A DNA stretch of 64,000 bases from Leptolyngbya sp. FACHB-321 (GTDB lineage Bacteria > Cyanobacteriota > Cyanobacteriia > Leptolyngbyales > Leptolyngbyaceae): NCBI RefSeq assembly GCF_014695975.1, contig NZ_JACJPI010000090.1, forward strand, positions 1 to 64,000, read 5' to 3'. Every line of letters starts with the position of its first letter. The stretch's first letter is position 1. This document shows, piece after piece, positions 2,070 through 51,790 of this stretch. Below the pieces are notes generated by a model. That model ran no database searches. It saw only the letters and a list, made by a program, of their open reading frames with translations, and was not told the DNA's origin. Position numbers and translations under genes: made by a program.

Positions 2070-2618
2070 TCAGTCTGGATTAAGGCGCAGCAGCAACTGA
2101 CCGTACTCGATCGGCTCGCCATTTTGCACCAGAATCTCAACGACCTCACCGCCAATTTCTGCTTCCAGTTCGTTCATCAGCTTCATTGCTTCGATAATGC
2201 AAACGGTTTGCCCTTTACGAATGCGATCGCCTACTTCCACAAAAGGTGGTTCATCGGGAGATGCCGCACGGTAGAAGGTGCCCACCATTGGTGAATTCAC
2301 CTCAATCAGGCGACGATCGCTTTTGCTGTCCCGTAGGGGCGAATCGTTGGACGGTGCGTTTGGCACAGATGGCGTGGCAGCGCTTTGTGCTACCTGTTTA
2401 GCCTCAGAGTCGGTGCGGCTATCACCTACTATTTGCCGCGATGCGCTTGCCTCAACTGCCTGACGATGATCGCTATCGCTGGCATAAAGGCGCTCCTCAA
2501 CCCGAACACCACGATGCACCGTAAGTTCAAAATCAGCGCTTTTTAAAGTTAGTTCTGTAATATCGGTCTGATCGATCGCGGCTAAAAGCTCGCGGAGTTC
2601 ATTTAAATCCAGTGACAC
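2070..2618 (-). CDS. accB: Biotin carboxyl carrier protein of acetyl-CoA carboxylase
   Basis: AccB carries the biotin that is carboxylated by AccC and then passes CO2 to acetyl-CoA, the first committed step of fatty acid synthesis. The 182-residue protein has an N-terminal helix ([17 protein letters not shown]), a variable Ser/Ala/Asp-rich linker at about residues 55-105, and a C-terminal biotinyl domain whose EAMKLMNE motif places the biotinylated lysine at about residue 146. It follows efp on the same strand with a gap of about 100 bases, the efp-accB pairing common in cyanobacteria. Length and motifs are typical. Confidence 0.97.
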
Positions 2619-2642
2619 AATGACTGTAAACCTCAGAAACAG

Positions 2643-2691
2643 GGGCTAGGGGCTAGGAGAAAGGCTAAAGGATAAACGCTAAAGGCTAAAA
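2643..2691. repeat. Heptanucleotide repeat between efp and accB
   Basis: Seven tandem 7-bp units on the plus strand: GGGCTAG twice, then GAGAAAG, GCTAAAG, GATAAAC, GCTAAAG and GCTAAAA. The phase stays at exactly seven. It lies in the efp-accB spacer and belongs to the drifting heptamer family found throughout the window. Confidence 0.75.
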
Positions 2692-2716
2692 CAAGTTTCA
2701 TCCTTTATCCCTTCGC

Positions 2717-3277
2717 TTACTGCTCTCTACCCAAATAAGAATCATTACGAGTATCAACTTTGATGCGTTCTCCAATGGTGATAAAGAGAGGCACCATAAT
2801 TTGAGCGCCTGTTTCGACGATCGCAGGTTTGGTACCACCTGTTGCCGTATCACCCTTCACGCCTGGATCAGTTTGGGTTACTTCCAGCACAACAGAGTTG
2901 GGCAGCTCTACTTCTAGCACCTGCTCACCCCAACGGACGACGTTCACTTCCATCCCTTCTTTAAGGTATTTCACGCGATCGCCAATCTGTTTGGCATTGA
3001 GACGTGCCTCTTCATACGTCTCCATTTCCATAAAAACGAAGTCATCCCCGTCTTTATAGGTATGCTGCATTGTGTTTTTTTCCAAGTTTGCCTGGGGCAA
3101 GCTTTCGCCCGCTCGAAACGTTCGCTCCATCACGTTCCCGGTTTGAACGTTTTTGAGCTTAGTTCGCACAAACGCAGACCCTTTACCGGGCTTAACGTGC
3201 AAAAATTCGACGACTCGCCAGACCGATCCGTCTAGCTCAATGCTTACGCCTGATCGAAAGTCATTACTAGAGATCAT
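2717..3277 (-). CDS. efp: Translation elongation factor P
   Basis: EF-P binds ribosomes stalled on polyproline stretches and restores peptide-bond formation. The 186-residue length and three-domain layout are typical: an N-terminal KOW-like domain ([18 protein letters not shown]), the domain I loop [10 protein letters not shown] with the tip lysine near residue 32, and the C-terminal signature [17 protein letters not shown]. It probably heads the efp-accB transcription unit. The ATG start matches the family. Confidence 0.97.
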
Positions 3278-3778
3278 GAGTGTGTGTATCGGGAGAAAAT
3301 GTTCGGCATCTCATTGTACCGCTCAGGGGTAAACCACGTTAAGCAGGCGAAGGACAAAGATAAAGGAAGGGAAAAAGGGTTTTTGCCAAACTCGTGCCAG
3401 TTTCGAGTAAGGAAGTTTCGAGTAAGGAATAGGACTTAAATAAGTTCGATCTTTGGTGGGGGCGGGTTTTGCTGTCAAAGCGATTGCAGGATGCCGTTTG
3501 GTCTGCTAAGACCGCCCGTACAATTTACGGCTTGACTAAATTCACGATCCTAAGCAAAGCATTAGGCTGCCGTCCCCTCTTTCCTACGCGTCTCTTCCCC
3601 ACGCACCCTCTTACTTCTGCCTGTGTGACCCCGCTCTATGGCAAGATTAATGAGAGTAACTGACCGTTTGTAGCTTTGTGCTGCCAATCGCCTTCTCTCG
3701 CTTACCGTTGAGTGGGCAGACAGCACCAAAACAGATGTCCGCTTTTGAGCCGCTAACTTGAGCAAGCAGTACCCAGAC
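3278..3778. promoter_or_regulatory. Divergent intergenic region efp / cyclophilin
   Basis: About 500 bases between two divergent genes, with no convincing gene. It must hold the promoters of efp-accB (left) and the cyclophilin gene (right), but I cannot pick a clear consensus. A 15-bp unit, AGTTTCGAGTAAGGA, is duplicated head-to-tail at 3399-3413 and 3414-3428. Confidence 0.5.
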
Positions 3779-7075: not shown

Positions 7076-8908
7076 TTAATGTTGCTCCAAAAGCCACTGT
7101 TGTAAGGTTGTGACCACATCTTCAAGCGCCACTTCCTGAGATTCTTTACTAGCACGTTTGACAACTTCGACTTTGCCTTGCTGGAGCGATCGCCCAGTTA
7201 CAAGGCGGTAGGGTATCCCAATTAAATCTGCATCCTTAAACTTTACGCCTGCGCGTTCATTGCGATCGTCCAACAAGGTTTCAATGCCTGCCTGATTGAG
7301 TTCGTCATACAGCTTTTCGGCTGCCTGTACTTGCTCGGCTTTGGCAATGTCGGGAATCACGACGATCGCTTGATAGGGCGCAATCGCAGTGGTCCACACG
7401 ATCCCATCTTTGTCGTAGGATTGCTCGACGGCGGCTTGTGCCAAGCGGGAAACACCCACACCATAACAACCCATGATCAGAGGCTTCTCTTCACCTTGCT
7501 CGTTCGTATAGGTTGCTCCCAGCGCTTCAGAATACTTTGTGCCCAACTGGAAGATATGCCCAATTTCAATGCCTCTAGCAGTTTTGAGCGTTTGGGTAGG
7601 GTCATGGAGGGCACGATCGCCTGCCGTTGCCTTTCGCACATCCACAACCAGCTTCGGTAGCTCAAACTCCTTACCCCAGTTCGCACCAACCACATGGTAA
7701 CCAGCTTCGTTAGAGCCTGTGACGAAATGCGCCAAGTCAACGGCAGTTTTGTCCACCACTCGCAAGAACTTTGGGGCAACGGGATTAGCAGCAACCTGTC
7801 CTGCTGGGGCTGGCTTGGGTGGCTTGATGTAGCTGTCTTCTAAGTTGGGAGCAATATAGCCGAGCGGCAGTGGTTTTGCTGCCCATTTTGCCTGTGTCTC
7901 TGCATCCGGCACGGTCAACGACAGAAGCGTTTTGCTAGCGTACTGGTCGGCTAGTTTGACCAACTCGTTTTGTAGCTTCACCTCGTTCACATCTTGGTCG
8001 CCTCGGATGCTGATTAGGACAAGCACTACTCTGCCGCTATCAAACACTGCCTGATACAAAACATTTTTAACAATCGCCGTGGGAGAGCACTTCAGCAATT
8101 GAGACAATTTGGCGATCGTTTCTGTGCCAGGAGTCTCTAGTTTCTCGTAAGCAGTAAAGGAAGATGGCTCTGCATCAGACGGTAGAGAAACAGCCTTCTC
8201 GACATTGGCAGAGTACTGACCATCCTCGGTGTACAGTACTTCATCTTCCCCTGCCTCTGCTAGCACCATGAATTCTTGCGAACCCGCACCACCGATCGCG
8301 CCTGAATCAGCATCCACTGCCCGAAAAGCCAAACCACAGCGGTTCAGAATATTGCAGTAAGCTATGTGCATTTTTTCATATTGCCGCTTGAGACCAGTTT
8401 CGTCAGCATCAAACGAATAAGCATCTTTCATGATGAATTCACGCCCGCGCATCAGACCAAAGCGAGGACGAATCTCATCGCGAAACTTCGTTTGAATCTG
8501 GTAAAGGTTTTGCGGCAATTGGCGGTAGGAGCGAATCATGTCACGAGCGATCGTCGTAATCACCTCTTCGTGCGTGGGACCCAACCCCATTTCGCGCTGC
8601 TGGCGATCAACCAGCGAAAACATAATGCCTTCCGCTTTTGTATAGGTATCCCACCGTCCTGATTCGCGCCATAGCTCAGCAGGCTGCAACTGTGGCAGCA
8701 GGCATTCTTGTGCCCCAGCGGCATTCATTTCCTCGCGAACAATCTGCGATACCTTCTGCAAGACTCGCCACATTAAAGGCAAGTACGCATACACACCACC
8801 TGCAATGCGCCGAATGTAGCCTGCCCGCAGCAGCAGCTTATGGCTAGGAATCTCCGCCTCTACCGGATCTTCTCGAAGCGTCACAAACAGCATTTGAGAC
8901 AGTCGCAT
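7076..8908 (-). CDS. proS: Prolyl-tRNA synthetase
   Basis: Charges tRNA-Pro with proline. This is the bacterial class II form of about 610 residues. Motif 1 and 2 regions ([46 protein letters not shown]) lie in the first 160 residues, an editing insertion domain follows, and the C-terminal anticodon-binding domain ends the protein. I place the start at ATG 8908, because homologues begin with MRLSQML; a longer frame opens at 8932. The DUF2993 and GerMN genes follow on the same strand. Confidence 0.97.
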
Positions 8909-32443: not shown

Positions 32444-35400
32444 TCAGACGATCGCGGGTTCTGGTAAGGCACCTTGCATTCGACTGAGCCAGTTGAGCAA
32501 GCTATCAAGCTGTTGTTCTGCCTTCAACGCTCCCAGTCCTCGCACTGTCACCTTCCCTGGTGTGTAGACAAAGCGCGAATGCAAATGATCCGGCAGATTA
32601 GCCTTAAGTAGATTCCAGGCAGGTTCTGCCATTGGTGTTTCCAGCACAATATGCTGAGTGCCATCAGGCTTGATGCGAGAGAAACCGCACTTTTTAGCTA
32701 CTTGCTTTAGTTCCACAATGCGGATGAGCTGAAGGGCAGCAGCAGGGATGGCACCATAGCGATCGCTCCAGTCGGCGGCGATCTGCGTCAATTCTTGCTT
32801 GCCTTCGGCAGAGGCAACAGCACGATAGGCACTCATTTTTTGATCAAGATCAGGGATGTAATCAGCCGGAATGAACGCGGTCAGGTTGAGGTCAATCTGG
32901 GTGTCATCGACAGTGGGGATTTCCTGCCCACGGATTTCGCCGATCGCTTCTTCCAGCATCTCAATGTAAAGATCAAAGCCGATCGCATCCAGTTGCCCAG
33001 ACTGCTCCGCACCCAGCAGGTTGCCCACACCGCGAATTTCCATATCCCGTACAGCGAGTTGATAACCAGAGCCAAGCTGCGCGAATTCTTGAATGGCTCG
33101 TAAACGCTGACGTGCGGTATCCGTTAGCTGGCTTTGCTTGGGGTAAAACAGCCATGCGTGCGCCTGAATGCCTGCCCGCCCGACTCGTCCCCGCAACTGG
33201 TAAAGCTGCGACAACCCAAACCGCTGCGCGTCTTCAATCAGGATGGTGTTAACGCGGGGAATATCCAACCCCGATTCGATAATGGTGGTGCAGAGAAGAA
33301 TGTCTGCTTCGCCTTCGCTGAAGGTCAGCATGGTCGTTTCAAGTTCAGCTTCGGGCATCTGTCCATGAGCGATCGCAATGCGAATTCCCGGTATCATTTC
33401 ACGGATGCGTGTGCCAATCTCTTCGATACCTTCTACACGGGGCACGACATAGAAGATTTGCCCACCGCGATCGAGTTCTTGCCGCATAGCGGTACGCATC
33501 ACTTCGGGGTCGTAAGGCGACAAGTGCGTTTTAATCGGACGACGAGAGGGCGGCGGAGTCGTGATCAGGCTCATCTCACGCACGCCCGAAAGCGCCATGT
33601 AGAGGGTGCGGGGAATCGGCGTAGCGCTGAGAGTTAGCACGTCAACCTGCGTACGGAGCGATTTGATTTTCTCCTTCTGGTTCACGCCAAAGCGTTGTTC
33701 TTCATCCACTACGAGCAAGCCTAAATCCTTTGGCTGCACGTCCTTACTTAGCAGTTGATGGGTGCCAACTACAATGTCCAGTTCGCCCGTTTTGAGCCGT
33801 TGGATGATGTCCTTGCGCTCTTGCGGGCTACGAAAGCGGTTCAATAAGCCGATTTGAATGGGGTAAGGTGCAAACCGTTCTTTTAGCGTGTGGTAGTGCT
33901 GCTGCGTCAGGATGGTTGTAGGAGCCAACATTGCCACTTGTTTGCCAGCCGTCACCGCTTTGAAAATAGCGCGAATGGCAACCTCTGTTTTACCAAAACC
34001 GACATCGCCGCAGACAAGCCGATCCATGGGGCGATCGCTCTGCATATCCTGCTTCACATCCTGCGTTGCTTTCAGTTGATCTGGCGTGGGCTGATAGGGA
34101 AACGACTCTTCCATTTCTTCCTGCCAGGGCATATCAGCGGGATAGGTAAAGCCAGTTTGTTGCGCTCGTTGAGCATAAAGCTGAAGCAAGTCCACTGCCA
34201 CTTTCTTAATCGCTTTGCGGACTTTGCTCTTAGTGCGCTCCCAGGCTTTGCTAGACATCTTGTTGAGTTCAGGCGTGGTGTCGCCTGCCCCCCGAAAGCG
34301 CGAGAGCGAACTAAGTTGATCTGCTGCTACCCGCAGCAAGCCATCGGCATATTGCAAGACCAAATACTCGCGGGTTTCATGGTTGAGCGTCAGGCTTTCG
34401 AGCTTGAGGAAGCGACCCACGCCGTGATTTTTATGCACGACGTAATCGCCGGGACGCAACTTGTTGGGATCAACCTGTTTAGAGGCAGCCCGCCGACGTT
34501 TGCGGACGTAACTGGGCGTTGCCAGGGAATGTTGACCGAAAAACTCCCGATCGGTCACGACAACCAGGCGGAAAGTCGGCAAAATAAAGCCTTCCAGTTC
34601 CGCCAAGCCAGAGTATTTCACTGCAACGGGGACATGCTGCACCTGAAGCTTATCGATTGCTAAGAAATCGCGCGGATTTGGGATAAACTGCGCTGGACAA
34701 TCGTGTTCTTGCAGCAAGGACACCGATCGCGACGGTTGTGCCGACACTAGCCAAATCGAAAAGCCGCGATCGCGCTCATCCCGCAGGGTTTCCGCCAGCC
34801 TGCCAAACTGATGGGGAATGGCAGGCACCGATCGACTCGCCAAATTAATTGGAGCAGGACCCTTATCCTGTGCGGTTCGTACCTTCGGTTCTTCTGCCAG
34901 TTCGGACAGGTAAAGGCGATCGAAGAGTTCGACCTCTGCCAACGATTCTGCAAACGTCCGGTGAATACGGGGAAAATCCAGCCTTCTTCCAACGTTATCT
35001 ACTCTTGCTTCGCCTGTAGATTCAATAACGTTGCCCTCTGCCTTCTGCCTTCTACCTTCTTCGTACTGCTCTTCGGCGTGCTCAAACCAGCGATCACCGT
35101 GCGCTTCTGATTGATCGGGTTCGTCGATCGCGATCAGCGTGTTTTCGGGTAGATAATCTAGCAGCGATGCAGGTTTGTCAAACGCAAGACCCAAAAAGCG
35201 ACGGGAGCCTTCCGGCATTAGCCCCTGATCAAACTTCTCCTGCTCTTCTTCCGACAAAAACGCTTTTATGGCATTGGCTTTACTGCCTGTGAGCGCCGTT
35301 TGAATAATGGGCGCAAAGTTTGTGGGAGTGAGAACGAGTTGCTCAATGCGATCGAGCGATCGCTGGGTTGCTGGGTCAAACTCTCGAATTTGGTCCAACT

Positions 35401-36052
35401 CATCGCCAAAAAGCTCTAACCGCATCGGCAATTCAGACGCAACCGGAAACACGTCAATAATGTCTCCCCGCCGACTCCACTGCCCTTCTGTCTCAACCAG
35501 GGGGACGCGATCGTAGCCTAGCCGCGCCAATTCATGCCCCAATGTTTCCAGGTTTAACTCTGTGCCTCGCTTCAGCGTTAAGCAGTAGGGCTTAAAGGCA
35601 GAAACAGGAGGCAAGTGAGGCTGAAGGGCACGTTCAGTAGTGACAATGGCGAAGGATGAAGGATGAAGGCTAAAGGATGAAGGTTGGGCTTCCGCCTTCA
35701 TCCCTCCGCCTTCATCCCTTAGAAGATCCGCCAACACCTGCAACTGCCCCCAAACCATCTCCGATTCAGGATCAAATGGCTCGTAGGGTGATGATTCGGA
35801 TGTGGGGTAGAAGTGAACGGTTTGCCAGCCCATTGCGTCGAGTTGGGCAGTCCAGCGTCCGGCTTCTTCCAGCGTGGCAGTGACGACCAGTAGATTACGA
35901 GACTGCGCCTGCGCCAGGGCAGAACTAACTAAGCCCTTGGGCAACCGTGCCAAGCCGTTTAACCTCAGATATTGATGCTGCTGAAGTTTCGCTAAGAGTT
36001 CGGTGGTGAGGGGCGATCGCCCCAGCGCACGAGTGATAGAAGAAAACGCCAT
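32444..36052 (-). CDS. mfd: Transcription-repair coupling factor
   Basis: Mfd removes RNA polymerase stalled at DNA damage and recruits UvrA. The 1202-residue protein has the UvrB-like N-terminal region, the RNA-polymerase-interacting domain near residue 530 ([15 protein letters not shown]), the helicase core with Walker [12 protein letters not shown] (near residue 680) and DEEQRFG, and a C-terminal D7 domain. Two small inserts are encoded by heptamer repeats: near residues 113-132 (35655-35718) and near 330-340 (35034-35061). The catalytic motifs are intact. Length remains near that of other cyanobacterial Mfd. Confidence 0.97.
35034..35061. repeat. Heptamer repeat inside mfd (1)
   Basis: Units CCCTCTG, CCTTCTG, CCTTCTA and CCTTCTT on the plus strand, in frame with mfd, encode an [10 protein letters not shown]-type segment. 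The sequence is almost the same as units between aspA and hisB and inside moeA. Confidence 0.7.
35655..35718. repeat. Heptamer repeat inside mfd (2), with inverted copies
   Basis: GATGAAG, GATGAAG, GCTAAAG and GATGAAG (35655-35682) are followed by inverted CCTTCAT units (35695-35701 and 35709-35715). The arms can pair. In mfd they encode a Met/Lys/Ala then Ser/Phe/Leu/His-rich insert. Confidence 0.7.
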
Positions 36053-42511: not shown

Positions 42512-45500
42512 ATGACGCATCCCCCTGAATCATTAGCTGTCGCCTTGCAATGGCACCGTAGCGGGCGTATTGCTGAAGCTGAAGCTGCGTACCGTCACCT
42601 GCTTGAGCAGCAGCCTAATGCTATTGATGTGCTTAATCTCTTGGGAGCGCTGGTCTATCAGCAGCAACGCTTTGAGGAGGCGATCGCCTGCTTTGAGCGT
42701 GTCCTACTGCTGCAACCCGATAGCCCTGATGCGTATAACAGTATGGGCATTGTGCTGAAAGGGCAGGGGAAACTTGAGGACGCAGTTACCCACTATCAGC
42801 AGGCGTTAGCACGACAGCCTGACCATGTGGAAGCGTTAAATAACCTGGGCAATGCGTTGAAAGAGTTGGGCAAGCTAGAGGATGCGATCGCGGCTTACCA
42901 GCAAGCCCTAAGACTGCGCCCCGCCTATCCTGAAGCACACAATAACCTGGGCATTGCCCTCAAAGATCAGGGGCAATTAGAGGATGCGATCGTCCATTAC
43001 CGAGAAGCGCTTCTGCTCAAGCCCAATTACTCAGAGGCGCACCACAACCTGGCAGTTGCCTTACAACGTCAGGGGACACTTGATGAGGCGATTGACCAGT
43101 ATCAGCAGGCGATCGCACTCAAGCCTGACTATCCAGAGGCACATCATGGTTGGGGCAATACACTTCAACAGCAGGGGGAGCCAGACGCAGCGATCGTTCA
43201 CTACCAGCAGGCGATCGCACTCAAGCCAACTTATGCTGAAGCTCATCATGGGCTAGCGACCGCACTTCAGCAGCAGGGAAAGTTAGAGGAAGCTGTCATC
43301 GTTTACCGTCAAGCGCTAACTCTGCGTGAAGCGTATCCCGAGGCGCACAACAATCTGGGTAATGCACTACAGGAGCAGGGGCAACTGGAAGCGGCGAGCG
43401 CTCACTATCAACGCGCACTCACCCTACGACCCCAATTCGCAGAAGCGCATAGCAACCTGGGAGCAGTGCTGAGAACACAGAAGCAATATGAGGCGGCGAT
43501 CGCTCAGTTTCAACAGGCGCTTGCCCTGCGTCCCGACTATGCCGAAGTTCACAACAATCTGGGGAATACCTATCAGGATCAAGGCAAACCAGACGCAGCG
43601 ATCGACTGTTACCGCCGAGCCTTAGCCATTAATCCTAACTCTGCCGAAATTCACAGTAACTTAGGCAATTTGCTTCAGCAGGATGGCGAGTTTGAAGAAG
43701 CATTTGAGCACTTGGAAGCCGCAATTGCCATCCAGCCTCATTACTTAGGGGCATACAACAACTTGGGCATTGCCCGTCGCAACTATGGTGACACTGCCGC
43801 TGCCTTTACCGCTTATGAACGAGCCCTTGCGATCGATCCAGCATTTGTCGAAGCACAGTGGAACAAAGCCCTAACTCAATTGTTTACAGGCGACTTGGCA
43901 CAAGGCTTTGCTGGCTACGAGTGGCGGCTCCAATGGAGCAAGTTTAGAGAGCAAAACCCAGTTCGATCGTTCCAGCAACCTCGCTGGGACGGCACACCGC
44001 TCGACGGCAAAACCATCCTGCTCTACACCGAACAAGGCATGGGCGACACGCTGCAATTTATCCGCTATGCCTCGATCGTTGCGGCACTCGGTGGGCACGT
44101 CATTGTCGAATGCCAACCGCTCCTCATCAACCTACTTCAGGGCGTTACAGGTATTCAGCAACTGATTCCTGAGGGCAGCCCGCTCCCTTCGTTTGATGTC
44201 CACGCGCCGCTCCTGAGCCTGCCCTACATTCTAGGCACCACTCTAGAAACGATTCCCGCCGACATCCCTTACCTTCAACTACCACTATCCAGCGATCGCC
44301 CCTCGCTCCCTACTCCCGCTTCACCCCTTCACCCCTCCACTTCTTCACTTCCACTCAAAATCGGCATCGTTTGGCAAGGCAATCCACTCAATCCCTACAA
44401 CCGCAGCCGTTCCTGCCCCCTGGAGCAACTTCTGACCCTGGCAGCATTACCTGATGTGCGGCTCTACAGTCTGCAAAAAGAGCCGTCACTAACCGACCAG
44501 CAGCAATTGCAAGCCTCGTTACAAACACAGTCCAATGTTCACGATTTACGAGCACACTTGCATGACTTTGTAGACACTGCTGCCCTGATCCAGCAACTTG
44601 ATCTCATTATTGCGGTGGATACATCGATCGCGCATTTGGCAGGCGCATTAGGCAAACCTGTGTGGCTGCTGCTCCCCTTTGCCCCTGACTGGCGTTGGAT
44701 GCAGCAGCGACACGATAGCCCCTGGTATCCAACCATGCGCCTCTTTCGACAGCCTGTACATGGCGATTGGGAAAGTGTCATCACGCAGGTGCAGGAAGCG
44801 TTGAGGGAGAAAGGGCAGAAGGTAGAGGGCAGAGGGCAGAAGGCAAAAGGCAAAAGGCAAAAGGTAAAGGGCAATAAGCGGTCAGCGGTCAGCGGTCAGC
44901 CTGTAGCAATTCGTCAGCCAATTCCTGTAGAGAAGCAAGCGACAGCGCCCAGTAGCCAACGATCGCAACTGACTCAAACGTCTCATGTACAAACAGACAA
45001 CACGCTACTCCCCACTCCCTACTCCCGATTCGCCGCTCCCCACTCCCCACTCCCACAAGCTCTTAAAAACGCTGTACGGCACCACCAGGCAGGACGCTAC
45101 CGTGAGGCAGAGCAGCTTTGCCATCAGGTGTTGCAAGCACAGGAAGACTACGCGGATGCATGGCATTTGTTGGGAATGATCGCCCATCAGGAACAACGCT
45201 TTGAGGCGGCGATCGCGTTTTACCGCCGCGCACTAACGACACACTCTGACAACCACGATACTCACAACAATTTGGCAGTAGCGCTTCAGGAGTCCAATCG
45301 CATTGATGAGGCGATCGCGCATTACGAAAAGGCGATCGCCCTGAAGCCAGATTTTGCGGATGCTCACAATAATTTTGCCAATGCACTGCGCCATAAAGGT
45401 TTAATGGCTGAAGCGATTGCTCACTATGAGCAGGCGATCACCATTCGACCCAACTATGCCGATGCCCACAATAATTTAGGCTTGATCTACTTCTCCCAAG

Positions 45501-48493
45501 GAAACTTTGAACAGGCAGCAGCTTGTTATCGGCAGGCGATCGCGATGAAACCCGACTTTCCACAGGCACACAACCATTTGGGGAATGCGCTGAAAGAATT
45601 GGGTGACTTTGATGCTGCGATCGCTCACTATAAGCAGGCGATCACGCTGAAGCCAGACTATGCCAAAGCATTTAATAACTGGGGCAACATCTTTCGCGAT
45701 CGGGGTGAGTTGCAAGAGGCAGTGCAGTACTACAACCAGGCAACGGCGATCGAGCCAAATTTTGCCGAAGCACACTGGAACAAAGCACTGACCCTTTTGC
45801 TTAATGGCGACCTGCTACCGGGGTTTGCCGCTTACGAATGGCGCTGGCAGGTCAAGCTACCGACCTTTCAACCCATGCGACCGATACCGCAACCTCGCTG
45901 GGATGGGTCTCCCCTTAACGGCAAAACTATCTTTCTGCACGCCGAACAAGGCATGGGCGACATGATTCAGTTCGTTCGCTACGTGCCACTTGTCGCGCAG
46001 CGCGGCGGACACATCATCCTGGAGTGCCATGCACCATTGATGCACCTGTTTCAGGGCTTACCCAATGTGGCAGCGATCGTCTCCTACGGCAGCCCACCCC
46101 CTCCGTTTGATGTCCATGCCCCCCTGATGAGCTTGCCTCATATCCTGGGCACCACTGTAGAAACGATTCCGGCTACCACACCCTATCTCCAAATACCAGC
46201 CGCCGCTTCCCTTGCTCCTCGCTCCTTACCCCGCTTTCCTCCCTCCTCCCTCAAAATCGGCATTGTCTGGGAAGGCAACCCCCAAAACCCCTATAACCGG
46301 ACGCGCGCCTGTCCGCTAGATTACCTGCTGCCCTTAGCCGATCGTCCCAATGTGGACCTGTATAGCCTGCAAAAAGAACCGTCCTCTGCCGATTTAGCAC
46401 GGTTGCAGGCACATCCTCACATCCATGACCTGCGAGAGCATCTGCATGATTTCGTCGATACCGCTGTCTTAATGCAGCAGCTTGATTTGGTCATTGCTGT
46501 TGACACTTCTGCCGCACATCTGGCAGGCGCACTCGGTAGACCGATCTGGCTGCTGCTGCCCTTTGCCCCCGATTGGCGCTGGTTGCTGGCGCGTGAAGAT
46601 AGCATCTGGTATCCCACTATGCGGATTTTCCGTCAGCCTTCCTATGGAGACTGGGCAGGCGCGATCGAACAGATACAAGACGCACTAGTTAAACTACAAC
46701 CGCAGAGAGGCAGAGAGACAGAGCCGCAGAGGCAAGAAGCGGTCAGTAAGCAGAAGGCAGAAGGCAGAAGGCAGAAGGCAGAAGGCAGGCTTCCCAGAGC
46801 GTCAGCCGACGGGAGGCAGAAGGCAGAGGGCAGAGGGCAACCGTTTGCAAGCCGTCAGCCAACTTCTACAGAGAAGCAAGCGACATCGACCAGTGGTCAG
46901 CAGTTAGCACTGGCTCAAACGTCCCCTGTACAATCTCATGGACAAACAGACAGCACGCTGCTCCCCACTCCCTCCTCCTTACTCTCTGCCGCCCTTCAGC
47001 ACTACCATGACGGCAAGTTTACAGAAGCGGAACGGGTGTGTCGTGAAATTTTGCAGCAAGAGCCTGATCAGGTAGCAGCGCTCCAAATTCTCAGCGTCGC
47101 GTTGTGTCGTGCAGGGCAGTCGATCGCCGCATTGCCGTACCTTCAGAAGGTTGTGCAGCTACAGCCGGAAGCACCGGAAGCTTGGAGCAACCTGGGTAGC
47201 GCGTTGCAAGAGCAGGGAAGCATTAAGGCAGCGATCGCCGCCTTCAACCGTGCGATTGCCCTCAAACCAGATCATGCGGATGCTCACTACAACCTGGCGG
47301 TCGTACTGCAAGAGCAAGATCGTTTGGAGGATGCCCTGTTCCATAGTGAGCAGGCGATCGCGCTGAAGCCTGACTTTGCTGATGCTTATTACAATCAGGG
47401 GTTTATTCTCCGACGGTTGGGTCAGCTAGAGGCAGCGATCGCCCGTTACCGTACGGCGCTTCAGCTTGCCCCCCAATCAGCAGGCGCACACAAAAATCTG
47501 GGTCATGCGCTGCTGTTGACAGGCGACTTACAGCAGGGTTTTCAGGAATACGAGTGGCGCTGGCAGCAACCCGGTTGGACACAGCGATCGTTTGCTCAAC
47601 CGCTGTGGGATGGCTCACCATTGCAAGGCAAAACGATTCTGCTCCATGCCGAGCAAGGCTTAGGCGATACAATCCAGTTCATTCGTTATGTTTCCCTGGT
47701 GCGTCAAGCTGCTTTTGGTGATTCTGGTGGACAGAATCACGGGGGAAGAGTGATCGTCGAGTGTCAGCCTTCACTGCTGCCGTTGCTTGAAACAGTGGCA
47801 GGTATTGACCAGTTGATTGCTCAGGATAGCCCTCTACCAGCATTTGATGTTCACGCGCCCCTCCTAAGCCTGCCCCACATTCTGGGCACAACTTTGGCAA
47901 CGATTCCCGCTGACATCCCCTACCTCCAAGCATCCCGCGCTGCCTCCGCGCCTCAGCTTCCCCTGCCTCACCCGTCCCCACCGCAGAGCGGAAGCACTCT
48001 ACACCCCTCACCCCTTGCCTCTCTTCCCCTCAAAGTCGGCATTGTATGGACTGGTAACCCTGCCCACAAAAACAATCCCTATCGTTCCTGCACGATCGAG
48101 CCTTTTCGTGACCTGTGCCAGATACCCGGCGTATGTTTTTACAGTTTGCAGAAAGGTGCTGCCGTAAATGATTTGCAGGCGGCTGACCTGCCAATCCAGG
48201 ACTTGAGCCAGACGTTGGCTGATTTTGCTGATACGGCAGCAGCGATCGCTCAACTCGATTTAGTTATTACCATTGATACGGCGGTTGCTCACCTAGCAGG
48301 GGCATTGGGTAAACCCGTGTGGTTATTGCTCTCCTTTGCCCCTGATTGGCGCTGGTTGCTAGAGCGTGACGACAGTCCCTGGTACCCAACGATGCGGCTC
48401 TTTCGACAACGCCAACGGGGAAGTTGGCAAGGGGTGTTTGAGCAAGTGACAGCGACATTAGAGCAATGGGTGGAACGCCGGAAACACGTTTAA
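42512..48493 (+). CDS. Giant protein with three TPR plus glycosyltransferase-like modules
   Basis: A 1993-residue protein made of three like modules. Each has tandem TPRs followed by a GT9-like domain. Module 1: TPR to about residue 449, GT to about 765. Module 2: TPR about 849-1088, GT to about 1395. Module 3: TPR about 1491-1665, GT to the end. The GT domains share blocks such as GKTIL with a following EQGxGDxxQFIRY, FDVHAPL with LSLP, and PVWLLL with FAPDWRW. Linkers of about 766-848 and 1396-1490 are Glu/Gly/Arg/Gln-rich and coded by heptamer repeats. It is probably cytoplasmic and glycosylates protein or glycan targets; the substrate is unknown. A GGAAG box precedes the ATG. Confidence 0.85.
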   Translation: MTHPPESLAVALQWHRSGRIAEAEAAYRHLLEQQPNAIDVLNLLGALVYQQQRFEEAIACFERVLLLQPDSPDAYNSMGIVLKGQGKLEDAVTHYQQALARQPDHVEALNNLGNALKELGKLEDAIAAYQQALRLRPAYPEAHNNLGIALKDQGQLEDAIVHYREALLLKPNYSEAHHNLAVALQRQGTLDEAIDQYQQAIALKPDYPEAHHGWGNTLQQQGEPDAAIVHYQQAIALKPTYAEAHHGLATALQQQGKLEEAVIVYRQALTLREAYPEAHNNLGNALQEQGQLEAASAHYQRALTLRPQFAEAHSNLGAVLRTQKQYEAAIAQFQQALALRPDYAEVHNNLGNTYQDQGKPDAAIDCYRRALAINPNSAEIHSNLGNLLQQDGEFEEAFEHLEAAIAIQPHYLGAYNNLGIARRNYGDTAAAFTAYERALAIDPAFVEAQWNKALTQLFTGDLAQGFAGYEWRLQWSKFREQNPVRSFQQPRWDGTPLDGKTILLYTEQGMGDTLQFIRYASIVAALGGHVIVECQPLLINLLQGVTGIQQLIPEGSPLPSFDVHAPLLSLPYILGTTLETIPADIPYLQLPLSSDRPSLPTPASPLHPSTSSLPLKIGIVWQGNPLNPYNRSRSCPLEQLLTLAALPDVRLYSLQKEPSLTDQQQLQASLQTQSNVHDLRAHLHDFVDTAALIQQLDLIIAVDTSIAHLAGALGKPVWLLLPFAPDWRWMQQRHDSPWYPTMRLFRQPVHGDWESVITQVQEALREKGQKVEGRGQKAKGKRQKVKGNKRSAVSGQPVAIRQPIPVEKQATAPSSQRSQLTQTSHVQTDNTLLPTPYSRFAAPHSPLPQALKNAVRHHQAGRYREAEQLCHQVLQAQEDYADAWHLLGMIAHQEQRFEAAIAFYRRALTTHSDNHDTHNNLAVALQESNRIDEAIAHYEKAIALKPDFADAHNNFANALRHKGLMAEAIAHYEQAITIRPNYADAHNNLGLIYFSQGNFEQAAACYRQAIAMKPDFPQAHNHLGNALKELGDFDAAIAHYKQAITLKPDYAKAFNNWGNIFRDRGELQEAVQYYNQATAIEPNFAEAHWNKALTLLLNGDLLPGFAAYEWRWQVKLPTFQPMRPIPQPRWDGSPLNGKTIFLHAEQGMGDMIQFVRYVPLVAQRGGHIILECHAPLMHLFQGLPNVAAIVSYGSPPPPFDVHAPLMSLPHILGTTVETIPATTPYLQIPAAASLAPRSLPRFPPSSLKIGIVWEGNPQNPYNRTRACPLDYLLPLADRPNVDLYSLQKEPSSADLARLQAHPHIHDLREHLHDFVDTAVLMQQLDLVIAVDTSAAHLAGALGRPIWLLLPFAPDWRWLLAREDSIWYPTMRIFRQPSYGDWAGAIEQIQDALVKLQPQRGRETEPQRQEAVSKQKAEGRRQKAEGRLPRASADGRQKAEGRGQPFASRQPTSTEKQATSTSGQQLALAQTSPVQSHGQTDSTLLPTPSSLLSAALQHYHDGKFTEAERVCREILQQEPDQVAALQILSVALCRAGQSIAALPYLQKVVQLQPEAPEAWSNLGSALQEQGSIKAAIAAFNRAIALKPDHADAHYNLAVVLQEQDRLEDALFHSEQAIALKPDFADAYYNQGFILRRLGQLEAAIARYRTALQLAPQSAGAHKNLGHALLLTGDLQQGFQEYEWRWQQPGWTQRSFAQPLWDGSPLQGKTILLHAEQGLGDTIQFIRYVSLVRQAAFGDSGGQNHGGRVIVECQPSLLPLLETVAGIDQLIAQDSPLPAFDVHAPLLSLPHILGTTLATIPADIPYLQASRAASAPQLPLPHPSPPQSGSTLHPSPLASLPLKVGIVWTGNPAHKNNPYRSCTIEPFRDLCQIPGVCFYSLQKGAAVNDLQAADLPIQDLSQTLADFADTAAAIAQLDLVITIDTAVAHLAGALGKPVWLLLSFAPDWRWLLERDDSPWYPTMRLFRQRQRGSWQGVFEQVTATLEQWVERRKHV
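44811..44900 (+). repeat. Heptamer repeat linker 1 in the TPR-GT gene
   Basis: Units of GGCAGAA/GGCAGAG/GGCAAAA run for about 60 bases, then GGTCAGC units three times. Three reading-frame passes of 7 bp give a 7-residue period (EGRGQKA). The array joins module 1 to module 2. Confidence 0.8.
46751..46839 (+). repeat. Heptamer repeat linker 2 in the TPR-GT gene
   Basis: GGCAGAA repeated in tandem, a short break containing GAGCGTCAGCCGACG, then further GGCAGAA/GGCAGAG units. It joins module 2 to module 3 and again encodes KAEGRRQ-type residues. Confidence 0.8.
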
Positions 48494-48527: not shown

Positions 48528-50372
48528 CTAATCTGCTAGTTTCTCCAGTAGTAATACGCCACCTTGATGTAGCCGTTTAGTCTTGTTTTCAAAAAGAGTC
48601 ATGAAGGCATCGATCGCGCCTTTTGGCAGCAGTTGAGTCGTGTTTTGTGCTGTATTAACGCCGTAATCCTCAAAGACGATCAGGCTACCAACTGTTAATA
48701 AGCTCCAGCTTAAAACGGCAATTTCTAGTGTTTCGCTAGCCGTTTTCATGCCACCGATGTAAAGAAGCTGATAGCTGTGATGAGGTAGCGATCGCAGTCC
48801 ATTGCAGGGAGCGCCAACAATTTTTTGCACCTTCTCAGCCGCACCTGTACGAGCGATATTCGCCTCAAAGCAGGTCAAAAGCGGTTGTCCGTCTGATGAG
48901 CCTTCAAAGCGATCGAGACAGGTGATGTGTGCTGTTTGAGACAGCAAAAGATTGTCTAGCAGCCAGCACGTAATGCGCCCATCCCGACATCCAATTTCAA
49001 GCGCCTTAAGATCTACAACGTGCTGCAATAAATGACGATAGCTGGTTAAAAAATTTAGATCAACGTCAGCGAACTCGCTAGAAAATTGATAGCCTTTAGT
49101 CAAGTGCTGAAACTGCTTTTTAGCCCTGGCAAGCTCTGCGATCGCTTCTGCAAACGCTGGCTGTAATGTCACGGCTTGCTGCAAAACCAATATTGCCTGT
49201 TCAAGCCGGTTTTGCTTATATAAAACGGTGCCGAGATTAAAATAAATTCTAGATAGATCAACAGTCGAAAGGGCTGAATTGAGGTCAATTGCTTGTTTGA
49301 AGTAAACGCCCGCTTCTTCTAGCTTGCCTTGTTGATGCAATGCTGAGCCAAAATTGTTATAAGCGGCGGCTAAAATGTTTTTAACCGTTGCACGTGTTGC
49401 CGGTTCCGCTTGCATACCATGTTCATAAAGCGAAATTGCTTCGGTATAGCACCCTTGTGATAAATAGTCGTTAGCTAGCTGCTGCCAGTTCAACTGTGCA
49501 GTTAGTTCAGTGGTTAAAGCAATTTTTCGGAATTTTTCGCCTAGATAACTAAAGCGCTCTTGTTCCAAACGCCGTCGTAGAAGGTGCAGTTCTCTCTCAT
49601 GAGGAGGCGTTTCATCCTGATACTGATCAGGTGGGGTTTGAAATTTTTTTAACTGTCGATCCAGATTATTGCCAGGATAGCGAATATATTCAACCGTTTC
49701 AATTTCAACTTTCAACACCTTAAAAAACTTTGACAGCCATAACGTGTAGGACACATCTTCACAACCAATTTGTTTATAAACGGGTGCTTCAGGAAAGCCC
49801 TCAACAAATTCATGGCAGTCTCGGCGTAGGCATAAGTTGAGAGGAATCGTATTTTCGATCGCGGCTTTCCATTCTGGGTAAACGGGATCTGCTAGCCGCA
49901 CACCTGTCCGTACAATGCCAACAGGATGGGGCGGTAGCGTTAAGGGATAGGAGGTCTCACCAACCTTTACTTGTAGGGGTTTGAGTGCTGCCTCAGACGA
50001 CGAGGGTTGATGATTGAGCAACATGAAACAGAGATAAATATGTTCTTTGAACATAAGATCATCCCCATCGCAGAAAAAGAGAATATCGCCCCTAGCAATC
50101 TTCACTCCCGTATTTCTAGCGGCACCACTGCCCAGGCTTCTAAAGTGCTTGATGACTTGAAAGTAAGGCTTATCTCGACCAAATTCTGCCAGCAGTGTGA
50201 GTGTGCGATCGCTCGATCCCTCATCAACCGCAATTAACTCAGCGTAAACGTTGTGCTCAACATTATCCTGCTGATAAAAGTAGGCAATGCTGGCATCAAT
50301 ACTTTCTAGCGTGCGAATAATTTCACGCTCTTTGTTTAGCACCGGGACAATAACAGAAAGTGAGCGAATCAT
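48528..50372 (-). CDS. GT2 - TPR - methyltransferase fusion protein
   Basis: A 614-residue protein. The N-terminal GT-A domain (about residues 1-265) shows SVIVPVLNKEREIIRTL, AVDEGSSDRT and the metal-binding FFCDGDDLMF. TPR units follow at about residues 300-435 (NFGSALHQQGKLEEAGVYF; YFNLGTVLYKQNRLEQA). The C-terminal 170 residues are a class I SAM methyltransferase of the type-24 kind (ALEIGCRDGRITCWLL; YIGGMKTASETLEIAVLSW). ATG 50372 with an AAGG box is preferred over TTG 50396. It is convergent with the giant TPR-GT gene 34 bases away, suggesting related glycan work. Confidence 0.82.
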   Translation of the reverse strand: MIRSLSVIVPVLNKEREIIRTLESIDASIAYFYQQDNVEHNVYAELIAVDEGSSDRTLTLLAEFGRDKPYFQVIKHFRSLGSGAARNTGVKIARGDILFFCDGDDLMFKEHIYLCFMLLNHQPSSSEAALKPLQVKVGETSYPLTLPPHPVGIVRTGVRLADPVYPEWKAAIENTIPLNLCLRRDCHEFVEGFPEAPVYKQIGCEDVSYTLWLSKFFKVLKVEIETVEYIRYPGNNLDRQLKKFQTPPDQYQDETPPHERELHLLRRRLEQERFSYLGEKFRKIALTTELTAQLNWQQLANDYLSQGCYTEAISLYEHGMQAEPATRATVKNILAAAYNNFGSALHQQGKLEEAGVYFKQAIDLNSALSTVDLSRIYFNLGTVLYKQNRLEQAILVLQQAVTLQPAFAEAIAELARAKKQFQHLTKGYQFSSEFADVDLNFLTSYRHLLQHVVDLKALEIGCRDGRITCWLLDNLLLSQTAHITCLDRFEGSSDGQPLLTCFEANIARTGAAEKVQKIVGAPCNGLRSLPHHSYQLLYIGGMKTASETLEIAVLSWSLLTVGSLIVFEDYGVNTAQNTTQLLPKGAIDAFMTLFENKTKRLHQGGVLLLEKLAD

Positions 50373-50419
50373 GCTGTTGCACCTTAGTAACTCCAATGTG
50401 CCGAAAGCTTTATTCCACC

Positions 50420-51790
50420 TTAACTTTGCAGCGATCGACCAATTTGCATCACATAAATCGACTCGCCACTGCTAATGTGGGTTTTTCCAATTGGCACTAC
50501 AGCTAGCCCGTTTGTACCAGCTAGATTGATCAAGTTTCCCGAACTGTGGCTACCGCCAGCTAAAGCAAACTCGTACAGCCCATCCGCCAAATCTAAGTGT
50601 CCCCAAAGATAAGACTCTCGCTTACCGTTCGATCGCAAATCGACCTGCGTTTTTGCCCTCACAAACGTTGGTTTCCACGCACGTTCAGGTAAGCCTGATA
50701 GTTTACGTAGCGCTGGCTCTACAAAGCGACAAAATGTGACCAGCGCTGAGACTGGATTGCCAGGAAGACCGAAGTAGAGCGTAGCAGCCTTGGAGAGTGG
50801 GAATCGTGAATCTGCCGACTCAAGCGCCCTAGCCTTCTCTGCCTCCTGCCCTCTGCCCTCTGCCCTCTGCCCTCTGCCCTCTGCCTCCTGCCCTCTGCCT
50901 TCTGCCTTCTGCTCAAACGTCGCCACGGTCAACGGCTTCCCTGGCTTCACTGCAACGGCACGAATGTGAATGTTGCCACCCAACTCCGCAAGAATGTCTT
51001 CTACATAGTCGTAGTCACCGACAGAGACACCACCGGAGGAAAGCACTATATCAGACTGATCAAGAGCGATCGCGATCGCCTGTTTCAGCGCCTCTGGTTC
51101 ATCCCGTACCACTCCTAACCGTATGGGGATTGCACCAGCCTGAGTGATCAAACTTGCCAGCGCATACTGGTTGGAGTCTACAATTTCACCCGACTGAAGC
51201 GGCTGATCAATGCTGACCAGTTCGTCACCCGTAGAAAGGATAGTAACCCGTGGCTGTCGGTAGACTTTGACCTGAGCGCACTGAGCCGCCGCCAGCACTG
51301 CCATTTCTGGAGCCTGAAGCCGCAAGCCTGATGACAAAAGCGGTTGTCCAGACTGATAAAAGGCTGCTCGCTTACGGACAAACGCCTGTGGCTGTGGCGC
51401 TGCCAGAATGGTCACTTGATCGCCGTCCCGCTGTGTTTCTTCCTGTATGACGATCGTATCAGCCCCAGCAGGCATCACTGAACCCGTTAAAATGCGAGCG
51501 GCTTGACCAGCCTCAACAACACACTGCGGTTGATAGCCCGCCGGGATCGTTTCAATGACCGCTAACGTAACCGGAGACTCCGCCGAACACGCCTGCACAT
51601 CGGCATAACGTACGGCATAGCCATCCATCGCTGAATTATCCCAGTGGGGAAAGTCGAGATCACTGGTTACAGAACCTGCCAGAATGCGACCGCGTGCCTC
51701 TAGTAACGGCAGCATCTCACTATCACGCTCGACATCAAGCGGCTGCACAAGGCTCAGGATAATTGTCTCTGCTTGCTCAACTGGAATCAT
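50420..51790 (-). CDS. moeA: Molybdopterin molybdenumtransferase
   Basis: MoeA inserts molybdenum into adenylylated molybdopterin. The 456-residue protein has the MoeA start (VEQAETIILSLVQPL), the DNSAMDGYAVR motif near residue 51, the central STGDELV, SSGGVSVGDYDYVE and VKPGKPL near 289. The closing LYFGLPGNPVSALVTF motif is delayed by an inserted stretch of about 40 residues (AEGRGQEAEGRGQ type), encoded by the heptamer repeats at 50832-50913. Conserved motifs on both sides are intact, so it is probably functional. No other moa/moe gene is adjacent. Confidence 0.95.
   Translation of the reverse strand: MIPVEQAETIILSLVQPLDVERDSEMLPLLEARGRILAGSVTSDLDFPHWDNSAMDGYAVRYADVQACSAESPVTLAVIETIPAGYQPQCVVEAGQAARILTGSVMPAGADTIVIQEETQRDGDQVTILAAPQPQAFVRKRAAFYQSGQPLLSSGLRLQAPEMAVLAAAQCAQVKVYRQPRVTILSTGDELVSIDQPLQSGEIVDSNQYALASLITQAGAIPIRLGVVRDEPEALKQAIAIALDQSDIVLSSGGVSVGDYDYVEDILAELGGNIHIRAVAVKPGKPLTVATFEQKAEGRGQEAEGRGQRAEGRGQEAEKARALESADSRFPLSKAATLYFGLPGNPVSALVTFCRFVEPALRKLSGLPERAWKPTFVRAKTQVDLRSNGKRESYLWGHLDLADGLYEFALAGGSHSSGNLINLAGTNGLAVVPIGKTHISSGESIYVMQIGRSLQS
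50832..50913. repeat. Heptamer repeat inside moeA
   Basis: About ten 7-bp units of the CTGCCCT/CTGCCTC/CTGCCTT type on the plus strand. The number of bases keeps the moeA frame open. On the coding strand they read GGCAGAG-like and give an EGRGQ-type heptad peptide. Confidence 0.85.

Follow-up and report, generated by a model that had tools for sequence, protein, structure and literature searches.

A conserved three-module TPR-glycosyltransferase gene of Leptolyngbya sp. FACHB-321 and the heptamer repeats in its linkers

Gene architecture and predicted function of the modules

The stretch of DNA analyzed here (referred to below as the window) comprises 64,000 nucleotides from Leptolyngbya sp. 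FACHB-321. It contains an open reading frame for a single long chain, in which three modules of the same layout, TPRs followed by a glycosyltransferase (GT) domain, are separated by two linkers encoded largely by tandem heptamers. An earlier sequence-only reading had placed three TPR-glycosyltransferase modules in one polypeptide at exactly these coordinates, and our analysis bears this out. The features of the gene are as follows.

42512..48493, + strand: open reading frame with ATG start, 1993 amino acid residues, three TPR-GT modules
42512..44803, + strand (residues 1-764): module 1, long TPR domain and GT9-like domain; GT at ~43922-44803; PF01075 score 25.2 bits
44810..45046, + strand (237 nt): linker 1, heptamer-coded, purine-rich (EGRGQKA), then pyrimidine-rich (TPYS/TPHS)
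44817..44900, + strand: heptamer array of linker 1, GGCAGAA/GGCAAAA, then GCGGTCA
45007..45054, + strand: heptamer array, ACTCCCC
45047..46693, + strand (residues 846-1394): module 2, TPR and GT9-like domain; GT at ~45839-46693; PF01075 score 18.6 bits
46694..46972, + strand (279 nt): linker 2, heptamer-coded; residues 1398-1483 with pLDDT <50
46750..46788, + strand: perfect heptamer array of linker 2 (GCAGAAG), 5.6 copies
46790..46815, + strand: 26-nt dispersed repeat lying within the heptamers of linker 2; 6 genome copies with up to 3 mismatches
46973..48490, + strand (residues 1488-1993): module 3, TPR and GT9-like domain; GT at ~47561-48490; PF01075 score 21.8 bits

The same reading described the linkers as heptamer-coded and composed of Glu, Gly, Arg and Gln. 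The heptamer coding stands, whereas the composition holds for the first half of each linker only; the second half is rich in Thr, Pro, His, Ser and Leu and is encoded by heptamers of the ACTCCCC type. A GT2-TPR-methyltransferase fusion gene (48528-50396, - strand) adjoins the three-module gene in all six members of the genus that were examined.

TPRs are present in each module, with 21 stretches matched by the Pfam model TPR_1 alone in a profile search. Matches of the GT domains to Glyco_transf_9 (PF01075) are weak, the score of GT1 lying above and those of GT2 and GT3 below the Pfam gathering cut-off of 22 bits, and weak matches of the GT part to heptosyltransferase profiles were also found. 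When GT3 was compared by sequence with the PDB, no match up to an E-value of 1 appeared, and fold comparison was therefore used. The structure predicted for module 3 has a pLDDT of 91.3. Linker 2 is modelled as disordered. In the VIA structure alignment, a GT9 structure ranks first and aligns to the GT part (3tov; Z 18.2, 3.0 Å, 251 residues), followed by heptosyltransferase II (1psw; Z 16.9) and TibC (4rb4; Z 16.4); the TPR part of module 3 matches the TPR domain of OGT. A Foldseek search with the whole chain of module 3, TPR and GT together, returned SPINDLY as the first hit and OGT among the top matches.

Conserved motifs were checked for each GT domain. Six motifs (EQGxGD, GxxWxGN, SLQK, DTxxxHLxG, DWRW and WY..FRQ), searched as slightly relaxed patterns, were found in all 48 of the 48 GT domains tested, which suggests that the catalytic heads are probably active in all three modules. 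In the pairs of species tested, dN/dS is 0.06-0.13 for each module. In each module, a GT9-like GT-B catalytic domain is paired with an OGT-like TPR superhelix, the putative receptor for the substrate, and the three heads would be tethered to one another by the flexible linkers. By analogy with FlmG, OGT/SPY and TibC, the most likely function is glycosylation of multiple sites on a protein or a repetitive surface polymer, either of which is a putative substrate.

Conserved modules and variable linkers

The gene was found in 19 of the 42 genomes of the family that were searched, representing 8 of 19 genera (E-values up to 1e-150). According to our own reading of the matches, 12 of these 19 genomes carry three modules in one frame, five genes are apparently cut by contig ends (G003, G004, G007, G021 and G032), and two are exceptions: in Stenomitos frigidus the reading frame is broken within linker 2, and the G010 gene has no module 3 past linker 2. 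A search for module 3 elsewhere in the G010 genome, covering the best 7 of 133 candidates (E-values up to 1e-60), gave no match that falls chiefly on this module. Eight outgroup orthologues have longer open frames (2237-2462 amino acid residues), in which the chain runs past module 3. In the one longer orthologue that was scanned (L088, positions 2270-3490), the extension is a GT4 domain, absent from the gene in the window.

A tree of 59 GT domains, comprising 48 module domains and 11 from outside, with GT segments shorter than 200 residues dropped, sorts by module and not by species. The four labels require 4 changes on this tree (least possible 3; mean of shuffled labels 32.7), and the nearest rows of each module from the window are the same module in other species. 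Module 2 forms a single clade (support 99/98) and the value for module 1 is 60/85; monophyly of modules 1 and 3 is not well supported. Judging from these relationships, the three-module layout very likely predates the split of the genera carrying it, and the enzyme is not a recent fusion.

Chains with several GT domains are also encoded in distant bacteria, where we counted from 2 to 7 GT domains per chain and saw one heptamer array among all of them. In G051 (L123 and L124), 4 and about 7 GT domains were counted, the latter number being a sum over two stretches that overlap; a chain of G039 (L125) has about 6 (7 matches, two of which are halves of one domain), and one from a Magnetococcales MAG has 3. 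The giant TPR-GT chains of G051 are clustered in one region. The three-module enzyme belongs to a known and widespread type, and the gene can be placed in a class of multi-headed TPR-glycosyltransferases with up to about seven GT domains per chain.

In the window, linkers 1 and 2 have period-7 scores of 38 and 32, respectively, and the maxima over 500 base shuffles are 8 and 9. Across 30 complete linkers, a count that leaves out two linker rows of G007 (6 and 12 nt), 17 score higher for period 7 than every one of 500 shuffles; 10 of these belong to the 12 linkers of the genus and 7 to the 18 from elsewhere. The remaining 11 linkers from outside the genus fall short of this, two of them tying with the best shuffle. 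The motifs of the linker repeats differ from species to species. Within the genus, the similarity of linker 1 to linker 2 of one species averages 0.453, versus 0.343 when a given linker is compared across species, and the within-species mean was reached by 13 of 720 re-pairings. Only 6 of the 12 genus linkers have their nearest counterpart in the second linker of their own genome; in the Centralia MAG the similarity of the pair is only 0.29. No orthologous signal was seen in these linkers, the similarity of the same linker between species (0.343) being not above that of the other linker (0.361). Outside the repeats, linkers 1 and 2 of the window have cores that agree at 83 of 106 positions, where the best of 40 shuffles reaches 55%, and matching bases amount to 68% in the 100 residues before each linker and 47% after each linker.

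The linkers are younger than the modules, and their repeats are secondary. Within a genome the seams tend towards likeness, whereas between genomes each module retains its identity. Two processes, copying between the linkers and filling from a species-specific pool of repeats, both fit the within-species likeness.

Heptamer repeats in the genome and in the reading frame

The window contains eight arrays of period 7, three of them in this gene, and none of periods 4-6 and 8-11. Sampling of 400 kb at regular steps along large contigs of this genome gave nine arrays of period 7, one of period 9 and four of the multiple 14, with none of periods 4-6, 8 and 10-13; array density is higher in the window than in the sample. 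Five of the nine period-7 arrays in the sample lie within open reading frames (at least 150 amino acid residues), which cover 78.6% of it; thus, coding regions are tolerated but not favoured. A strict rule requiring a purine-rich sense strand in every coding array was rejected: two of these five arrays are pyrimidine-rich and one is mixed. Short heptamer stretches are also present at 35032-35060 and 35651-35719, in a large open reading frame (32444-36052, - strand) that is mfd-like by eye and would be a housekeeping gene.

Linker 1 has at least 43 other matches in the genome outside both linkers, as counted from the best 40 of 267 candidates; moeA is among the matches listed, most of which are to the purine-rich heptamers of the linker. 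The 26-nt repeat of linker 2 lies inside GGCAGAA-type heptamers in all six of its genome copies (reversed control, 0), and it gives the peptide EGRLPRASADGRQ in the products of the three-module gene, a crt-like gene and a GT2 gene. Translated heptamer blocks occur in loops of moeA and of menE-like (L129, three blocks), PBP1C-like (L127) and crt-like (L128) genes of this genome, and also in sbcC-like (L126) and GT2 (L130) genes; except for moeA, which was named by a family search, the gene names are our reading of the sequences. These genes do not constitute a sample, because they were found through carrying repeats or lying in the window. The array in moeA (50420-51790, - strand) is 76 nt long (50837-50912) and lies in-frame within the MoCF domain.

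Genus orthologues of four block-bearing genes have the same loops with different peptides and conserved flanks. For moeA, the comparison covered six genus relatives; the loop differs among them, and S. frigidus and the Centralia MAG have a short one. The loops of the menE-like gene are mostly shorter in outgroup rows, where heptamer peptides were not seen by eye, and five outgroup rows lack the insert of the crt-like gene, which G010 has.

How such repeats can be accommodated in genes follows from their period. When all tandem heptamers were enumerated, the three frames agreed on stop content in 16384 of 16384 cases: stops occur either in every frame of a tandem heptamer or in no frame, because 21 nt run through all three. 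On a given strand, 69% of heptamers are open; all 11 heptamers listed for the linkers are open as oriented, and 4 of these 11 are closed if inverted. An open tandem heptamer yields one peptide in whatever frame it is read, and only the copy number modulo 3 affects what lies downstream. Heptamers can persist in coding DNA because an array that is stop-free in one frame is stop-free in all, with the same peptide. A period that is not a multiple of 3 therefore offers a simple route from repeat to protein, and frame neutrality predicts which repeats can invade genes, where they can do so (disordered hinges) and at what risk (a change of phase of the downstream module). Our search of the literature, with most subscription journals outside its reach, did not find translated heptamer blocks in these genes; frame-neutral heptamer DNA that fills the joints of this gene and the loops of other genes in the genus is the new part of these results.

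In S. frigidus, linker 2 (L090, oriented positions 7169-7447) is 278 nt long, which is not a multiple of 3, and contains about six AACTCAA units. The peptides SKLKTQNSKLKT and TPHPTPH read through it in both the module-2 and the module-3 frame. Module 3 is out of frame, yet it has an intact open frame of 505 amino acid residues. No ATG, GTG or TTG start for a separate module 3 is present between position 7367 of oriented L090, where this frame opens, and position 7560. Relative to Tildeniella nuda, dN/dS is 0.113 for module 3, 0.085 for module 1 and 0.076 for module 2. Since module 3 is intact with a dN/dS of 0.113, the break would be recent, reversible or a fault of the assembly.

To the sequence-only reading, the gene had looked like an in-place fusion or amplification of a TPR-GT gene. 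Under such a scenario, three neighbouring TPR-GT genes, or copies of one, would have been joined by an intergenic expansion of heptamers that removed the stops. Stop-free heptamers could in principle join genes in this way, and the heptamers at both seams as well as the likeness of the two linkers at 83 of 106 core positions agree with it. However, each module has orthologues in other genera, the GT domains group by module, and 12 of the 19 genomes have all modules in one frame. Moreover, the identical layout is found with unrelated linkers, the very observation that the sequence-only reading had named as weakening its fusion idea: 11 of the 18 outside the genus are not above all period-7 shuffles (two ties), and a G007 linker is only ~12 nt long. 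The chains with 2-7 GT domains elsewhere show a single heptamer array among them, and divergence is far greater between the modules that follow the linkers than between the two linkers. With orthologous modules and unrelated linkers under one layout, we reject repeat-mediated fusion as highly improbable. We consider it very likely that the gene encodes an old three-module TPR-glycosyltransferase, probably a multi-site enzyme with a putative substrate, whose linkers were secondarily filled by dispersed heptamers. The linkers would have taken up the heptamers and the small dispersed repeat because they tolerate hydrophilic, disordered sequence, and turnover of the repeats, possibly by copying between both linkers, would keep the linkers species-specific and the modules conserved. 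As to how the repeats arrived, a tentative alternative to expansion by slippage, to which we give somewhat less than an even chance, is that heptamers and the small dispersed repeat form a mobile composite element that was inserted as linker blocks, similarly to Rickettsia palindromic elements (RPE). By eye, several genes share one order, with purine-rich heptamers first and pyrimidine-rich ones after them; the 26-nt repeat has the same heptamer surroundings in all six copies and is translated alike in three proteins. These observations are consistent with such an element, but fixed ends of the blocks were not seen, and the different content of blocks at the same loop in different species also fits turnover in place.

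As a further alternative, slippage by one heptamer unit could bring the module behind a linker into or out of the reading frame and so change the number of active heads, making the linker a phase-variable switch. The linker 2 of S. frigidus, with its 278 nt and about six AACTCAA units, would suit this, as would the open module 3 of 505 residues that lacks a nearby start and has a dN/dS like that of the in-frame modules; the loss of module 3 past linker 2 in G010 points the same way. Only one of 30 linkers is out of phase, though, the arrays are of modest length, and the S. frigidus case comes from one draft assembly of one strain, where an assembly fault is possible; we regard such a switch as unlikely. 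A more general proposal, according to which stop-free heptamers throughout the genus are frame-neutral, self-copying coding DNA that colonises loops and linkers, with copy number modulo 3 acting as a reversible switch of the number of catalytic modules, is likewise doubtful.

Comparison with known systems

Heptamers of the STRR type were reportedly described in cyanobacteria by Mazel in 1990, and small dispersed repeats (SDR) of cyanobacteria are said to have been described by Elhai in 2008. The size range of SDR is about 21-27 nt. The repeats described here resemble both in being dispersed tandem heptamers, specific for period 7, in which a 26-nt repeat is embedded; they differ from STRR heptamers in lying in-frame inside conserved genes. 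One study reports that the G-rich heptamers it examined are under-represented in coding regions (PMC4692102). Rickettsia palindromic elements, according to another, are ~150 bp long and lie in-frame in unrelated genes (PMC10969869). The likeness consists in small repeats translated in-frame within unrelated genes, whereas the blocks in our case are arrays of variable length without visible fixed ends.

With respect to the enzyme, OGT and SPINDLY (family GT41 in CAZy) share with each module a TPR superhelix followed by a GT-B domain and are top Foldseek matches, but for the GT part of module 3 the VIA alignment gives GT9 structures as the closest. OGT and SPY carry one catalytic head per chain. 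The GT9 heptosyltransferases WaaC/WaaF and TibC, which is likewise titled a heptosyltransferase, share the fold of the GT part (Z 16-18) and the weak matches to PF01075 and heptosyltransferase profiles, but their structures align to the GT part only and the PF01075 scores of modules 2 and 3 are under the cut-off. The TibC family modifies autotransporters, as stated in a title cited in PMC7591256. The literature that we searched on multi-headed TPR-glycosyltransferases contained no functional description beyond that of the one-module FlmG. FlmG of Caulobacter (PMC7591256) is a TPR-GT flagellin O-glycosyltransferase of 596 residues with an N-terminal TPR domain, which binds flagellin, and a C-terminal domain of GT-B type; glycosylation requires both domains. 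Each module here has the same succession of a TPR and a GT-B-type domain and a comparable size, but FlmG has one module and transfers pseudaminic acid to flagellins, whereas the present chain has three modules. FlmG is the nearest functional precedent for the TPR-GT module.
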